Assembly: GCA_030248295.1 (NCBI GenBank)
Contig: JASANH010001721.1
Coordinates: 186,001 to 250,000, forward strand
Origin: Mesodorylaimus sp. YZB2_4
Lineage: Eukaryota > Nematoda > Enoplea > Dorylaimida > Dorylaimidae
DNA: 64,000 nucleotides
Direction of reading: 5' to 3'
This document shows, in pieces, positions 8,049 to 51,440 of the stretch (position 1 is its first letter; every line of letters begins with the position of its first letter). The notes beneath the pieces were generated by a model that was not told the DNA's origin, did no database searches, and worked only from the letters and a program-made list of their open reading frames with translations. Made by a program: the position numbers and the translations under genes.

Positions 8049-8345
8049 ATGAATTGGTTGCTGCTCTTATTGCTTATCGTTCTTGTCATAACTGCTGTCG
8101 AGGCATCACCCATATTCTCCCATCGATCACGCCGAGGTACCCTCAATGATCATCTCACATCAAATCTGGAGGAATCACCGTCAATGAGCATTAGCAAGAG
8201 ACATAATCCCAAACATCGCCGTCGTGATGTTAGCGACCTGAACCATTCGTTGAAAGTGCTTCAACAGATGCAACAACACCATCGCATGCGCCATCGACAG
8301 CAGAAGATCGAACAGCAGACGAGGCGGTTGACTGACCTGGGCTGA
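8049..8345 (+). CDS. secreted prepropeptide, candidate CRF/DH44-like diuretic hormone
   Basis: The 98-residue ORF starts with a textbook signal peptide (MNWLLLLLLIVLVITAVEA, cleavage before SP). Basic cleavage sites follow at HRSRRG, ISKRH and KHRRRD. After the last site a 39-residue segment runs to the stop: DVSDLNHSLKVLQQ, a helical Gln/His/Arg-rich middle, then RRLTDLG. The final Gly sits directly before the stop and would allow C-terminal amidation. Length, the S-L-x-V-L opening, the basic amphipathic helix and the amidated end are those of CRF-like diuretic hormones (DH44), though the middle is about four residues shorter than insect forms. That it is a secreted prepropeptide is well supported; the DH44 assignment is inference. 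It appears to lie in one exon. Confidence 0.7.
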   Translation: MNWLLLLLLIVLVITAVEASPIFSHRSRRGTLNDHLTSNLEESPSMSISKRHNPKHRRRDVSDLNHSLKVLQQMQQHHRMRHRQQKIEQQTRRLTDLG

Positions 8346-31299: not shown

Positions 31300-33698
31300 T
31301 CACATTCCGAACCTACGATTAGTTATCTTGGCAGAGCAGTCTGGATTGGGCACACGGTCCCTCAGGTACGATACTAATGGCTGGTCCTGTCGATTAGCAC
31401 ACGTTGCTCGACATATTCTCAAGCGGCCTGAGCATAAGGCGTGTTCGGCCATCCAATCGTAGTCTTCACAGATCAGGTTACCATTGTTCGATATGTCTAT
31501 GATCAAGGTCGATTTCTGATCGAGTAGATCACCGATCGAACTATCGACTCTCTGGAGGCCAGTGGAAGTCACGGCGATGGTGAGGTTGGGCGAAATCTGA
31601 AATGAAGGAAGGACAGACATGTCGGTCGGTATCTATGAGACTCAACAGAAAGCATTTCATAACTCATAACGATGACAGCGCCACATCTGTTTGCTGCGTC
31701 TCTACCACTGCGACATATGGACCTGAAGAATAATTTTGGACTCCTGTGTGCGCTGTTTAATCCTAGGCTCGCTCTAGGGCTAGCTCTCGTGAGTCTCGGC
31801 CAGGCACAAGACCGAGATCGAGGTCGAGCTGGTTTGGTTTGCGGGCAACAGTGCAGGACTGGTCTTGAGTTCTTTGTCTGAACTGCTCTGTGTACACTTC
31901 GGGCTCAGGTCAGTCAGAACCCATTCGACGGCCGATATGTTCAGCCGCTCCCCGACTTGACAGTCTGTGCGACCCTTCTGGTGCGCTGATAGTAAGCTCA
32001 AGACGAGGTGTCGCGTACTGCATAGGATTGTTCCTGCGGCTTGAGCCATCCTCACGTCACCCCTAGTCTATCCAGGGCGAGCCAAGGATTTCACTAGGGC
32101 ATGCCTGAGGAAGGCTCAAGCCACAGGATCAGTCGCACGCAAGCGTCAGCGAGGTTTGAAGACCCTAGTCGAAACTGCAAATCAAAGCAGTCACTCGACC
32201 TCGAGCTCGCTCCAGTCTCGTGTACAGCTGTGATCTAGAAGAGGCGGACCAGTACTCTGAACCAGTGCACTGATAGGTGCAGATAAGATATCCACCTATT
32301 AAACTGCTGTAACCCTCGTGCTTGGTAGGCCATGGCGAGTGGGAGAGAGTAATCGATACTCTCCCCTGGCTGGGAGACGTCAACCCCTCGGTTTGATGTT
32401 TCAGCCGTAGGTATAGTCGCAAGACTATCATGCTCCAGTCGGAGTTTTTGTCCCGCCGACTTCGGTTGGCCGCCTCCCTCCTACGCCTTCCAGGCTTGGT
32501 TACACTGCGACCACGGCATTGTCTGACCCCCTACTTCAAGTACCTTGTCAATATCAGACACAGTCAGAACCTTCAAGGCCGCGCTGGAATCAAAGTACAA
32601 ATCTGTCAATGTCTGTTGCTCAGCAACAATCGATAAATCAAGGCTTGATAAATTCGTGCTCCTCAAATCAATCCATGATACTGTCAAATCAGAAAACGCT
32701 CCATCTTCAATCCTCGAAATTGGATTACTATTTAAAATAAGTGCTTCAAGACCCGTGCCATCGATGAAATCACCTTTGGCAATCGATTCGATAAGATTGC
32801 TCGCTAAGGAAAGTATGCTCAAGGCCGATTGATGCTTCAAGATACTTCGGGGCACTGAAGTCAACCCAACCATGTCTAAATAGAGCCGAGATAGTGATGG
32901 GGGAAGTTGATCCAAAGCCCCATTCGCGATGCTCATATTCAATGGATTTCCAACTAACGATAAGCTCTCCAATGCCGGAAATAGCAACAGTTGCTTAGTG
33001 GATATGGCCGAAATGAGGTTATTGTTCAGGTTTAAACTTTTGAGGTTTTTCAGATTCCGCAGAGGCGTAATGGGAAATTCAGATAGCATTGCAGCATTGA
33101 GAGTCAACTCTTGTATTGCTTCCAGTCCCAAGAAAGCATCCTCATCAATGTTGGTGATGTGGGTGTGGCGGATCCAAAGTGTCGTTAGATTAGGAAGAGT
33201 GCTGAAGTCCCCTCGGTCCAAGGTAACAGTCTCATGAGTATTGTCTATGGATAAGCCCCTCAAAGACGATCCAAGCTGGTTCAGGGCCGCTGGTAGTGGA
33301 ATCAAGCCAGCTAAACCAGTCACTTCCAAGTGTGCAATGAGGACTTCATCGAATGCCGTGTCATCCCAATTCTGATAAATCGTACTTGACGAACTGGAAA
33401 CTTGAGTCAAAGCCAGAATGCCAATAGATGCGAAAGCCACGAAGTGTCGATCCGGAATGTAAAAAACGTTCCCAGTTATTTTTAACTTATCAGTGATTAT
33501 ATATCTGGCGTCTGGCAATGGTGTGAATACGGGCAATGTTGCAGCAGCTCCACATTCTACGCGGAGGAATACGAGGGGTTGTGGGGGCAACGCGGGCGTA
33601 CATCGGCACTGGTCACTGAATGGGCACGATAAGGCTATTGTAGAGTGGAGAAAAAGACAAGCAAGAAGATTTGAAGCCAGCAGTCTTGTAAGCAACAT
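31300..33698 (-). CDS. secreted leucine-rich-repeat protein, paralogue 1, 483 aa
   Basis: Exons 32544-33698 and 31300-31596 join in phase across a 947-base intron holding several repeats. A signal peptide (MLLTRLLASNLLACLFLHSTIALS) precedes an N-terminal Cys cap, CPFSDQCRC. About ten LRRs follow, clearest as LKSLNLNNNLISAI, LESLSLVGNPL, LSILSLASNLIESIAKGDF and LEALILNSNPISRIEDGAF. The last exon carries the C-terminal cap (ICEDYDWMAEHALC...ATC). No membrane helix is visible, so it is probably secreted. The ligand is unknown. The related gene at 38613 shares the caps, the repeat order and the exon boundary, so the two arose by duplication. Confidence 0.88.
31757..31779 (+). repeat. CCTAGG palindrome repeat, copy 2
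   Basis: AATCCTAGGCTCGCTCTAGGG matches the 30446 copy with one change inside the loop-proximal stem. It lies in the LRR intron. Confidence 0.5.
32070..32094 (-). repeat. CCTAGG palindrome repeat, copy 3, inverted
   Basis: The reverse strand reads TAGTGAAATCCTTGGCTCGCC, like the 30446 copy including the TGAAATCC lead. It lies in the LRR intron. Confidence 0.5.
32306..32487 (-). repeat. hairpin-rich interspersed element, copy B
   Basis: The reverse complement of these 182 bases matches copy A at 27929-28110 along its whole length, with scattered substitutions and compensated hairpin arms. The short peptides opened by both copies (beginning MIVLR and containing SQGRVSITLSHSPW) differ at several residues, so the shared open frame may only reflect recent common origin. 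It lies in the intron of LRR paralogue 1. Confidence 0.75.
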
Positions 33699-34407
33699 CC
33701 TAGCGAGAAGTGACAGCGCGTACTATACCTTGTTTGCACATGGGGTGATCAAGAGCGAGTGGAAAGCAGCCAACGCCCAAGCCGAAGATGCGGGTACCAC
33801 CCAAGTTTACTCTTGATATGCATGACACTATGACGACTTATTGACGGCAGAAAGGAATAGATTGCGTTAAAGAACTATAGCGTATCGGAACCTCTTGTTG
33901 ATTGTTCTTTCTTGGACCTTGGATGGTTGGCGCGCACGACTGACCGTGGCACGGACTACATAGGTCTGTACATGGCATGCAGGAGTCAAAATTTTGTGGG
34001 GTGGTCATGTGTTACGACCTGTCTAGGATGATAAGGTGCCACCCACCCGCCGTGCCACACCTTCCTGCCTCATGACGGGGAACTTTATTGCACAGATCTT
34101 AAAGAGGATATAAAAAACATATTTCATTTTCATTACCCGCAGTCGAGTGTTTCCGACAGCGTACACGGGGAATTCATACTGACACTGCTTGTGGGCGATA
34201 GCAGAAAAACTAGATGGTAGCGCCATCTGGCGGTCACTTCTGGCTGTCTGCTAGGCGCGCCAAATCGTCTCCCGTCGTTTTGGCGCGAAAATGGGTTAGT
34301 TTGTTGAGTTGAAATTTGGAAATACTAACCCTGATCGGCAAGATTTTTCTGAATAATATAGTCATTTGATCGACATCATTTCTAATTTCTTTGTTCGAGA
34401 ATCCAAA
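33699..34407. promoter_or_regulatory. divergent promoter region, LRR paralogue 1 and HMCES
   Basis: About 700 bases separate the minus-strand LRR start from the HMCES start. Neither strand shows a supported ORF. The promoters of both genes should lie here, but no specific element stands out. Confidence 0.4.
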
Positions 34408-37760: not shown

Positions 37761-38612
37761 AGTGCAGAAAACAGTTCTCTCCTACGCAATGACTAAGGCT
37801 TGTTTGCGCCCAGCAGGCTCAGAGTTCTTTTGATATTCCCTGAGTGACCTTTTGGGCGTAGTCTAAGCGCTGATAAGTAAAGCAATGGCGCTTATCTGTT
37901 TTCCGACGCCTTCATCGTAAGTGGCAAGCTATACTGTATATGCCAGAGGGATCCCCGTCAGCTTTACGGAGCTAGAAAAGTATTCAGTAAAGCAGCACCA
38001 TAAAAATCCGAAGTCACGAAGTACAGGCTCAAATCAGTGGCACAGTCTCAATGTTGTCGACAATGGAGTACAGTAAGTCAAGCTAACCACAATTTGCAAA
38101 AAGGAAGTTAATCTGACAGAATAGAATTTAGACTTGAATTATCCGAGTCTTCAGTCGAACCGAGGGTGCCAATTTACTAGATGCACGAAGTACAGTGTAG
38201 TATACCTTGCCGAAGACTATCTGTAGCTGGCCCGTCAAAGAAATGTTGGTTCTACACAGTGTCTCTGGTAACCGCAACAGGACTGTGCTTTTCCAGAAGA
38301 CTGCATCGGTGACACGATCCCCGAAATCGACGTCAGCAATGGTCATCTATGGGCTCAGCTGCCAAATTTTACTGCTCACAGAAAGCCACAGTGACGTACT
38401 GTACCGCTGTGTGCATGGGAGTGGGCGTGGCTGATTGATCTTCTTAAGACGGGTTTCATTCGGGTGCTTGTGCACTCGTTCAGCCAAATCTTTATTTGCA
38501 GACTATTTGAAATAAGCCTTTGACTAAACGGCGAAAGTGGGTTTGCTTGATAAAAACTTGGGCGAAGACGCTCTTCGCATGTCGCATCTATGGCTATAAA
38601 CCCTCGTAACAT
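37761..38612. other. intergenic, upstream of LRR paralogue 2
   Basis: No coding signal. The right end should contain the promoter of the LRR gene at 38613. Confidence 0.4.
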
Positions 38613-40230
38613 ATGGCCATGAACTCATTTGCGTATTTTGCAGCGGCAACAATGGCTGTTTTCACTCTTGTGCTAACACTGTTCCTGGCTGGGTTTCGAC
38701 TAGCCTCACAGTCGCCATGCCCTTTCAACGAGAAATGTGAATGCGAGGAAGCCAGCCCACCCGTTGCTTACATGTTTGCGAACGTTACCTGCACTTCACC
38801 AACATTGCCCGACTTCGTCTCATCAACTCACAAGTACACGATTCAAGAGAGGTTTTTTATCAAGGACAATGTATCAGTCATCCCAGCAAATCATTTTGTG
38901 GCATTCCAGTCGATCGGAGAGCTCTACTTGGAGCAAGCCAAGAAATCTGACCCCGCCATGCTGCAGTGGGATCCGCTAGCCTTCACTGGTGTCACTGTTA
39001 CCCGGTTGACCATCACGGGGGTATCGGGACTGTTTCCATCCGGTCAACCTGCGCCTGCTTGGGCAGCACCGATTGGACGTGCGGGCTTACAAGACTTGTC
39101 CATTTTAGGCTGTCAGACACCTGTCTCCTTGTCCGACGTCAGTCTCTCGGACTTGGTGAACTTGACTTCATTCGAGGTCATACATAGCCCCGTGGTTGAC
39201 ATCACAAGTAAAAGCTCGATACGCCTCCATGATTTAACCCTGTTTAATGCCTCGTTATCAGAATTCTACCCGAGTTGCTAGCGGACATTTCGATGAGTGG
39301 AAACTCTTTGGCTGCCTCAGTCGAAGCGGGCGGTTTGGATAATCTGCCTGCTAGATTGTCTAAGCTAAATCTCGACAACTGTGCCCTCGATGCAGTGCCA
39401 AAACGGATTATTAGTAATAACGTCATCAGAGAATCCTTATCACTGTCGGCCAATCCGATTCAGGCAATTCGTAAGGATGATTTTTCCAACACTGATAGGC
39501 TACGTCAGTTAAAACTGTCAGGATGTCCTATTTCTAAAATCGAGAAGGGTGCATTGGATCCTCTGCACCGAGTAGAACTACTCGATCTATCGGGCACCTC
39601 CCTACCGTCTGTTGACTTATCACTATTTCAGTTTGTGGGGGTGACGAACCTCAGGGTGAACCTCGATTCGTCACCCTTTTTGAAAAGGGTCACTGCATCT
39701 GTTACTTTTACTGTAAGTGTTAGCTCCAATATGGGGCTAAAAATCTGTGTTACTGTATGTGTGCAGCAGGTCATATTTTTTAGTTTCGCCTTCATGATAC
39801 GACAGTGTCATTTAAGTCAACCGGACTCGAAACTATTGATCCTAGCATTGGCCAGCTTGTTGCTTCGACTGACTGGAATCTGCAAATCGATTTCTCATGC
39901 AATACAAAACTGAAATGCAAGAGTCTTGACTGGATGGCCAACTACGGTGATCAAATTAGAGACGGCAAACTTATTATCGAAGCTGCCACCTGCGCTGATC
40001 AAGGCGACGTGCCGCTGAAAAATTATTTGAGAAATCTCGATAACTCGACCACACAGCCGACCACACCGGCAGTGCCTACTTCTCGTCCATCATCCACCCA
40101 CCCCCAACTAAGTACCGTGACGCAAGGTGGTGGGAAGGTGTCGACTAATGCAGTGTGGGTGGCCAGATTTATAATGGCCCTTCATTTCCTCATGCAGCAG
40201 TACCATTCCACCCAGGTCGGCCCTCGTTGA
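38613..40230 (+). CDS. secreted LRR protein, paralogue 2, frame-broken (possible pseudogene)
   Basis: Two exons, 38613-39712 and 39784-40230, with GTAAGT and TTTTAG ends at the same place as in paralogue 1. A signal peptide (FTLVLTLFLAGFRLASQ) precedes the Cys cap CPFNEKCEC and LRRs. Near 39262 the frame changes: the first part ends at LFNASLSEF and hits TAG at once, while the frame starting LPELLADISMSGNSL continues. Against paralogue 1 about 33 residues are missing exactly there, so a deletion of roughly 100 bases broke the frame. The C-terminal cap and a Thr/Pro-rich stalk follow, ending in a weakly hydrophobic tail (VWVARFIMALHFLM) that could be a GPI or membrane anchor. A local sequence error is an alternative. 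Confidence 0.75.
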
Positions 40231-49781: not shown

Positions 49782-49922
49782 TAGAGCAGTGCTGGGCCAA
49801 TTAGGCGACTCGCTGTCATGGTCTGGAACAGCGAATGACGCAGTTCATTATTTATTATAGTCCAAGTCAAAAAATCTGAAGCACAAGTTTTCGCCGAGTT
49901 AAAACTCGAGCAGGCGGTCATA

Positions 49923-51440
49923 ATGCAGTTGGCTCTGGCTGAAATGGAGGACGAAGATTTGATGACTCCGTTGGAGATGGACCCAGAATTGGCCGCCCAT
50001 TTCGGCTTGAACGCGTGCGAATGTAATGACATGGGCGAGAAGGATTATTCGGCCTCCTACGCCATGTACAATTTTGTGGTAGTCATCATAATTTTACCAT
50101 TCGTGGCTGCCTTTGGTATTTTTAGTAATTTTATAAACTGTTACATCTTTACTCGACCCTCGCTTTATTCCTCAGTCAATATCTATCTGCTAGCTTTGAG
50201 TTGTAGCGACCTTCTGGTCGTATCGACGGGCGTATTCGTGTTTTACTCGGACAGTGTCCGCGTCTACTTCCCCTCGTTCACCGATGTGGCCACGCAAGGT
50301 ATCATTTGGGTATTGCCGTTAGGATTCGTCGCTCAGACGTGCAGCGTCTATTTCACGGTGGCTGCAGCAGCCGATTGCTATGTCAAAGTGTGCTGGCATC
50401 CTTTGAGCACATATTGGTGCACACCCCTTCGAGCCAAACTGGTCACACTGGCCATTACTACATTCAGCGTTGGCTATAACGCTCTTCGTTTCTGGCAGTT
50501 TCAACTGAACTCGTGTTGGGACGTATTGCATAACGCGTCCAACATCGAAGTGTGCCCTACCGAGCTCTATTACGAGATAGGTGTCATATACAATGTCTAC
50601 ATGTACATGGTCTTGATGACTGTGCTTCCATTCATGCTTTTGAGTTTCCTCAATGTGCTCATTGTTCGCACTGTCCAGCGCATGCGTCACAGGAATAAGA
50701 AATTGATGGCTGGACTGGTCATAGCTTCACCTGCGGCCGAAAAGAACGGAACAGTTGGACGCAATTTGGGTGACGATTTGAATGATAAATCGCCGATCAG
50801 TGACAACTTCGAGGTAGCGAGTGGCGCTGCACCACCAGTTTCGGGCGATGACAGTGTTGTGACCATGGTCATGGTGGTAATTTTATTCTTGGCGTGTAAT
50901 ACTTTGGCCCTCATTGTCAATATCGTGGAGACATTTTTCGATCCGGACCCGCTAGTTGTGCAGTACATGACGGATACGAGTAACCTACTGGTGGTCTTCA
51001 ATTCCTCTGTCAACTTCGTTATCTACATGTTATTTGATGGAGTATACAGAGCCGAATTCAAGAGTTGCATCTACTGTAACCTACCATATTTTTGTCTCCG
51101 TGTTCGCGTTCCTTCCGTCTACGAAGGGAACATAAAAACGAATGGTGCTTCGTCGCCTATTTTGTATTCAAATAACCACAAGCCGCTAGAGACAATCGAC
51201 GACGAGGTACCGCGACAGAAATGCGTGACTGGAATCGGAGAGTATCTGTCAGTGCCAACATCGCCGTCAGCTGTTCAAATGCCCACAAAAACGTTAACAA
51301 GATTTTGTTCACTGGAAGAAGATCGAGATCAGTTCGCCATGATGCCACTCATGCTGTCTTCCGATAATATTTATCAAAAAAGTGGAAAGAAATCCAAGTC
51401 GAGACATGTGCGAGTGGAGGCGATCAGTTCGCCTTCGTGA
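49923..51440 (+). CDS. class A peptide GPCR, FMRFamide-receptor-like, with DCY in place of DRY
   Basis: A 505-residue single coding exon with seven hydrophobic helices. TM1 is FVVVIIILPFVAAFGIFSNF, TM2 NIYLLALSCSDLLVV, TM3 ends VAAAADCYVKVCWHP, and TM7 is NSSVNFVIYMLFDGVYRAEF. CTPLRAKLV after intracellular loop 2 and NSSVNFVIY in TM7 are hallmarks of invertebrate FMRFamide/FRPR-type receptors. The DRY arginine (3.50) is Cys at residue 152, and the canonical NPxxY is NFVIY, as in its relatives. Intracellular loop 3 and the C-terminal tail are long and Ser-rich. The Cys at 3.50 could reduce or alter G-protein coupling. The coding region has no intron, though most neighbours have several. Confidence 0.9.
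   Translation: MQLALAEMEDEDLMTPLEMDPELAAHFGLNACECNDMGEKDYSASYAMYNFVVVIIILPFVAAFGIFSNFINCYIFTRPSLYSSVNIYLLALSCSDLLVVSTGVFVFYSDSVRVYFPSFTDVATQGIIWVLPLGFVAQTCSVYFTVAAAADCYVKVCWHPLSTYWCTPLRAKLVTLAITTFSVGYNALRFWQFQLNSCWDVLHNASNIEVCPTELYYEIGVIYNVYMYMVLMTVLPFMLLSFLNVLIVRTVQRMRHRNKKLMAGLVIASPAAEKNGTVGRNLGDDLNDKSPISDNFEVASGAAPPVSGDDSVVTMVMVVILFLACNTLALIVNIVETFFDPDPLVVQYMTDTSNLLVVFNSSVNFVIYMLFDGVYRAEFKSCIYCNLPYFCLRVRVPSVYEGNIKTNGASSPILYSNNHKPLETIDDEVPRQKCVTGIGEYLSVPTSPSAVQMPTKTLTRFCSLEEDRDQFAMMPLMLSSDNIYQKSGKKSKSRHVRVEAISSPS

Follow-up and report, generated by a model that had tools for sequence, protein, structure and literature searches.

Is a hormone of the CRF/DH44 type encoded in a nematode genome? 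The question is raised by a short gene in the window, i.e., the whole stretch of 64,000 nucleotides analysed here, which a preliminary description proposed as a candidate CRF/DH44-like neuropeptide precursor. According to the accessible text of earlier reports, the CRF system appears to be lost in nematodes (PMC6158228), nematode genomes yielded no DH44-receptor homologs (PMC3961327), and none of the annotated neuropeptides of C. elegans is clearly homologous to CRF or urocortin (PMC4915151). The terms CRF, corticotropin and DH44 do not occur in the main text of PMC8764417, which surveys the NLPs of nine parasitic nematodes. A literature search of titles and abstract openings, mostly of open-access papers, found no report of a nematode CRF/DH44 peptide. 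A nematode with both CRF-like ligands and CRF-type receptors would shift the loss of the CRF system to a later branch.

The candidate precursor is a single unbroken frame of 98 amino acids plus TGA on the plus strand (8049..8345), with the ATG at 8049 and the stop codon at 8343-8345. Around this ATG the frame is already open from 7881, and the full frame has 154 codons. The N-terminal sequence of the precursor is MNWLLLLLLIVLVITAVEAS, and includes a probable signal peptide at approximately residues 1-20 (8049..8108, +), a hydrophobic stretch with an inferred cut point. Hydrophobicity peaks at a mean of 4.02 over the 10 residues from residue 5 (Kyte-Doolittle), in agreement with the signal peptide claimed in the preliminary description. 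The three basic cleavage sites claimed there are also readable as sequence motifs on the plus strand, RSRR at residues 26-29 (8124..8135), KR at residues 50-51 (8196..8201), and RRR at residues 57-59 (8217..8225), the last of which abuts the C-terminal peptide. A fourth dibasic run, RR at residues 92-93, was not listed there and lies within the predicted mature peptide; internal basic pairs are present in DH44 peptides too. The C-terminal peptide has the 39 residues ascribed to it (60-98), and its final residue Gly98, the putative amide donor, is immediately followed by the stop codon (8340..8345, +). Based on a 17-row family alignment and on profile comparison, the mature product is predicted to be an amidated peptide of 38 residues, D60 to L97 (8226..8339, +). 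His, Gln, and Arg are abundant in it, and its motifs are H-S-L-K-V in the N-terminal part (8244..8258, +) and T-R-R-L-T-D-L in the C-terminal part (8319..8339, +). The former is read as H-S-L-K-V-L at residues 66-71, which is the S-L-x-V-L-type opening described earlier. Among the ATG-initiated ORFs of at least 60 amino acids on both strands of the window, 17 of 161 end in Gly; within these 17, the precursor combines the highest N-terminal hydrophobicity (4.02, followed by 3.23 for an ORF that has no dibasic run) with the largest number of dibasic runs (four). Homology is stronger evidence for the window gene than such a count of ORF features.

When taken alone, the window gene has no CRF match in Pfam or the PDB, which agrees with the earlier expectation that ordinary similarity search would miss it. 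Comparison of the window peptide with CRF/DH44 by hhalign gave a score of 17.5 (probability 20%), and 18 of 500 shuffles matched CRF/DH44 as well as the peptide itself, a result nominally surpassed by that with NPY/NPF (3 of 500). In a shuffle test with four peptides, 3 of 1000 shuffles of the window peptide were as good end-to-end and 38 of 1000 were as good locally. Because the CRF/DH44 similarity of the window peptide is weak, its membership in this group runs through its paralogs.

These paralogs were sought in the whole genome (145 Mb, 1067 contigs). The window precursor as query found five places including its own locus, among them a paralog on contig C15 (E value 4.1e-4; reciprocal E value 0.0159) and, as fourth match, C14 (E value 2.46). 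The peptide from C15 found seven places and that from C18 found 17, in each case with its own locus included; the window locus was not among the latter. With its own locus set aside, the E values of the C18 query extend from 1.1e-5 to 2.18, and the tail of this distribution is weak by E value alone. The 17 places from the C18 query, the window and C84:140998 make up 19 candidate loci, of which 17 were fetched (C90 and C102:94804 were left out), and all 17 end in Gly-stop. Whole precursors were read for six of the 19 loci (the window, two on C15, C18, C158, and C27), and the C-terminal end for the other 11 fetched. The five whole precursors besides that of the window are uninterrupted ORFs of 120-134 amino acids. 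Those of the C15 pair and C18, with 131-134 amino acids, begin with a hydrophobic stretch and close with a peptide that runs to Gly-stop, and those of C18 and C27, unlike the window precursor, are without a dibasic site upstream of the peptide. Several family loci are carried by each of the contigs C10, C15, C84, C89, and C102, which suggests local duplication within the family. The sole invariant column of the 17-row alignment is the final Gly. The member on C158, modelled with this alignment, forms one helix over residues 2-42 (mean pLDDT 95.0; pTM 0.56). The mature peptide is thus helical in the model of this member, and a helix is not specific to CRF.

The 39-residue window peptide scored 18.8 bits against an HMM built from the other 16 members, and none of 1000 composition-preserving shuffles was as good (maximum 12.1 bits). 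When the six frames of the window were scanned with the same HMM, the 154-codon frame of the precursor scored 8.8 bits, with a best domain of 11.0 bits and a bias term of 15.2 bits. By whole-sequence score it came second (E value 0.19) to an unrelated minus-strand frame (E value 0.13); ranked on best domains, it came first (E value 0.038). In the 17-row alignment, the window peptide is one residue short near the C-terminus and has 26% identity to the first row, compared with 23% for C84b and 28 and 30% for the C15 pair. As judged from its sequence, the window peptide is a divergent member of the 19-locus paralog family.

All CRF/DH44 and control peptides used in the comparisons were reference sequences entered by hand. 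The 17-row family matched 14 such CRF/DH44 peptides with an hhalign score of 27.4 (probability 87%), which became 27.8 with the window row dropped; the mean of 200 column shuffles was 8.4 and their maximum 16.5. The row identity in this alignment is 11%, and the length of the mid-helix differs. The scores with five control families were 6.0 for PDF, 6.8 for calcitonin/DH31, 6.5 for PTH, 10.8 for the secretin group, and 5.5 for NPY/NPF. Random CRF subsets of two, three, and five sequences (40 draws each) had lowest scores of 11.9, 14.8, and 17.9, so that subsets of control size surpassed the best control (10.8) in 120 of 120 draws. Against the insect DH sequences alone the family scored 22.2. 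When single peptides were compared with 13 CRF/DH44 peptides, none of 500 shuffles was as good for 14 of the 17 members. The Pfam CRF model matched six of the 17 members (best E value 0.025) and no other Pfam family matched more than one; all six are among the 13 members other than the window, C15 pair, and C18 peptides, which have no Pfam CRF match. By these sequence measures, the paralog family is similar to CRF/DH44, and specifically so relative to the five other peptide families.

Other searches were weak, uninformative or negative. An HMM built on the CRF/DH44 reference set gave 2.5-10.6 bits on the first four peptides (6.9 for the window), too weak to be used alone, and cockroach DH44 as a genome query found one place (E value 2.04). 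The Pfam CRF model, searched against the genome, gave no match at E values up to 10, with every candidate lost at the first filter, and this search is uninformative. PDB profile searches with the four-peptide and 17-row alignments returned no CRF chain: the first four peptides matched 19 unrelated chains, mostly dihydroorotate dehydrogenase, and the 17-member profile matched one unrelated chain, as did a search with the C18 peptide. The proposed assignment as a CRF/DH44-type precursor is supported through relatives, namely by the family profile, the Pfam CRF matches of six of 17 members, and the two receptors described below. The profile check that the preliminary description had proposed for the window peptide has a divided result, in that the peptide alone is without CRF-family support while the family profile matches CRF/DH44. 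It was further held there that a lack of profile support, together with another clear DH44 gene elsewhere in the genome, would count against the assignment; the lack is found for the window gene alone, whereas the clearer CRF-like genes elsewhere are its own paralogs.

In insect DH44, as in the family, a secreted precursor carries a long helical peptide as its C-terminal part. The hhalign alignment joins the two up to the last Gly, which is preceded by N/T-R-x-L/I-x-x-x-hydrophobic, and places T-R-R-L-T-D-L of the window peptide on N-R-A-I-L-K-N-V of Drosophila DH44, with one residue fewer in the former. At the other end, H-S-L-K-V resembles the DH44 S-L-S-I by eye, whereas hhalign puts H-S-L on L-S-I, two residues off the match by eye, and the N-terminal register is uncertain. 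The S-L motif and the amide are about 31-32 residues apart here, compared with about 41 in standard DH44, and the middle part is rich in Arg, His, and Gln. Manduca DPII and Tenebrio DH37 have 30 and 37 residues, respectively, and the window peptide is near both in length. A further difference from insect DH44 is the number of candidate loci, 19 in this genome; for a stress/osmotic hormone, such a radiation would be unusual. As to the vertebrate peptides CRF, urocortins, and sauvagine (Pfam PF00473), the vertebrate set alone matches the family profile (hhalign score 23.8), although the Pfam model itself reaches six of 17 members with a best E value of only 0.025, and the window member is not one of them.

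The preliminary description also proposed looking for a DH44 receptor in the same genome. The HRM domain has 22 genome matches at E values up to 0.1. Counted by exon, 15 of these are over the curated Pfam cut-off, and they sit on 13 contigs (C249, C16, C111, C2, C133, C260, C13, C25, C32, C114, C44, C6, and C85). C. elegans has, besides two latrophilins, the hormone-type class B receptors pdfr-1, seb-2, and seb-3, according to the accessible text of PMC4915151. If most of the HRM matches are separate genes, hormone-type class B receptors would be more numerous in this genome than in C. elegans. The best 7tm_2 matches, C58 and C72, were set aside as latrophilin-like from a reading of their frames. 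Five receptors were joined by hand from exon frames, and four of them were compared with solved structures. The C133 receptor is closest to human CRF1R (196.9 bits) and CRF2R (187.6 bits), the next class being represented by GLP1R (128.1 bits) and the calcitonin receptor (126.3 bits), and the C13 receptor is closest to CRF2R (190.3 bits) and CRF1R (189.2 bits), with the CGRP receptor next (136.3 bits). C44 is ambiguous between CRF1R (134.1 bits) and the calcitonin receptor (129.9 bits), C2 is nearest to the calcitonin receptor (104.1 bits vs 87.3 bits for CRF2R), and C6 is nearest to VIPR1 and PTH1R of the reference receptors. Identity between the C133 and C13 receptors is 73%, and in the transmembrane region they have 37-38% identity to human CRFR1; SEB-3 of C. 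elegans has 28-30% identity to mammalian CRF receptors in the accessible text of PMC4915151, a whole-receptor value that is not like for like with the transmembrane one. A receptor tree of 10 rows left the position of C133/C13 beside CRFR1 without resolution. In a tree of eight rows, with two long branches dropped and limited to the transmembrane part, C133/C13 join CRFR1 at 93/88, a support that falls below the 'shown' mark of the tool and is rated neither shown nor rejected. By score margin, at least two receptors encoded in the same genome, C133 and C13, are classed as CRF-receptor-type GPCRs. The presence of ligand family and receptors in one genome would make their pairing directly testable.

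A comparable system in C. elegans is formed by NLP-49 and SEB-3, likewise a nematode neuropeptide and a class B receptor, the latter having been called CRF-like (PMC4915151, accessible text). The NLP-49-2 sequence, taken from the available part of PMC6158228, had C455:36578-36652 as its sole genome match (68% identity over 25 residues; E value 6.2e-5), and matched none of the 19 family loci at E values up to 10. NLP-49-2 has its own counterpart at C455, distinct from the 19 CRF-like loci. An NLP-49-like gene, seen as a peptide exon at C455, coexists with the CRF-like family in one genome.

Several explanations are to be weighed. We consider it quite likely that the window gene encodes a shortened precursor of the CRF/DH44 type and that its family has expanded; our confidence that the window copy is itself an active hormone is lower. 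The copy might have decayed or taken on another role, such as that of a basic antimicrobial-like peptide, with its paralogs remaining hormones. Its identity to the first alignment row, second lowest at 26%, the residue missing near its C-terminus, its richness in His, Gln, and Arg, and its weak direct similarity to CRF would all fit such a fate, which we nevertheless think unlikely, as the copy has kept an open frame, a hydrophobic N-terminus, its three cleavage sites, and the Gly-stop, and as the family HMM recognises the peptide above shuffles.

The two remaining explanations concern the family as a whole. Nematode-specific amidated helical neuropeptides could have come to resemble CRF/DH44 by convergence only, through an amphipathic helix, basic residues, and a terminal amide. 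This would account for a best Pfam CRF E value of just 0.025, and for an hhalign alignment with 11% row identity and a mid-helix of different length. Convergence appears distinctly unlikely when set against the scores of 5.5-10.8 for the five control families, compared with 27.4 for CRF/DH44 and at most 16.5 for column shuffles, the 120 of 120 draws in which CRF subsets of control size outscored the best control, and the CRF-type receptors in the same genome. Alternatively, the peptides may be real ligands of another class B system, either SEB-3 or an orphan receptor, and so be class B-like without being CRF/DH44 orthologs. In its favour are 15 HRM matches over the cut-off, with five receptors assembled; C44 is barely closer to CRF1R than to the calcitonin receptor (134.1 vs 129.9 bits), and the C133/C13 receptors may conceivably be orthologs of SEB-3, which is called CRF-like in the accessible text of PMC4915151 and was outside the receptor comparison. 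It is a most improbable solution all the same, in that NLP-49-2, the SEB-3 ligand, has a separate counterpart at C455 outside the 19 loci, and no other tested class B ligand family matches.

For a CRF/DH44-type precursor, the proposed pathway would begin with entry into the secretory pathway directed by the signal peptide, followed by cleavage after RSRR29, KR51, and RRR59 by prohormone convertases. A carboxypeptidase and amidating enzymes would then convert the last Gly to a C-terminal amide, giving the 38-residue amidated helical peptide. The C-terminal half, with TRRLTDL-amide, would bind the extracellular domain of a class B GPCR of the CRF-receptor type, the N-terminal part, with HSLKV, would reach into the seven-helix bundle of this GPCR, and activation would most likely raise cAMP. 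By analogy, the role might be osmotic, stress, or arousal control. We infer expression, processing, amidation, receptor pairing, signalling, and physiological role, with convertase cleavage, amidation, two-domain class B binding, and cAMP signalling drawn from established neuropeptide biology. We also speculate, as a very unlikely scenario, that the CRF/DH44 system escaped loss in this nematode lineage, with CRF-type receptors retained and the ligand multiplied to about 19 short hormone genes, and that, if the animal is an arthropod parasite, some of the peptides may act on diuretic or behavioural hormone receptors of the host and not just on those of the worm.

As for the genome itself, the nematode cuticle collagen model (Col_cuticle_N) has 133 matches at E values up to 0.001. 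On this basis the genome is assigned to a nematode, and a tardigrade origin, also weighed, was discarded. The 22-mer of the SL1 spliced leader was not found, either exactly or with up to two mismatches. The absence of SL1 is unusual compared with the best-known nematodes, and is a hint of a divergent nematode lineage. Elsewhere in the window, a long uninterrupted frame at 49839-51440 (+) encodes a rhodopsin-class GPCR (7tm_1, E value 3.1e-18; Srw, 1.3e-7), possibly a neuropeptide receptor. A leucine-rich-repeat protein is encoded at 32481-33722 (-) (LRR_8, E value 2.6e-28), and frames at 38610-39913 (+) are similar to it by eye; the two are perhaps a local duplication.
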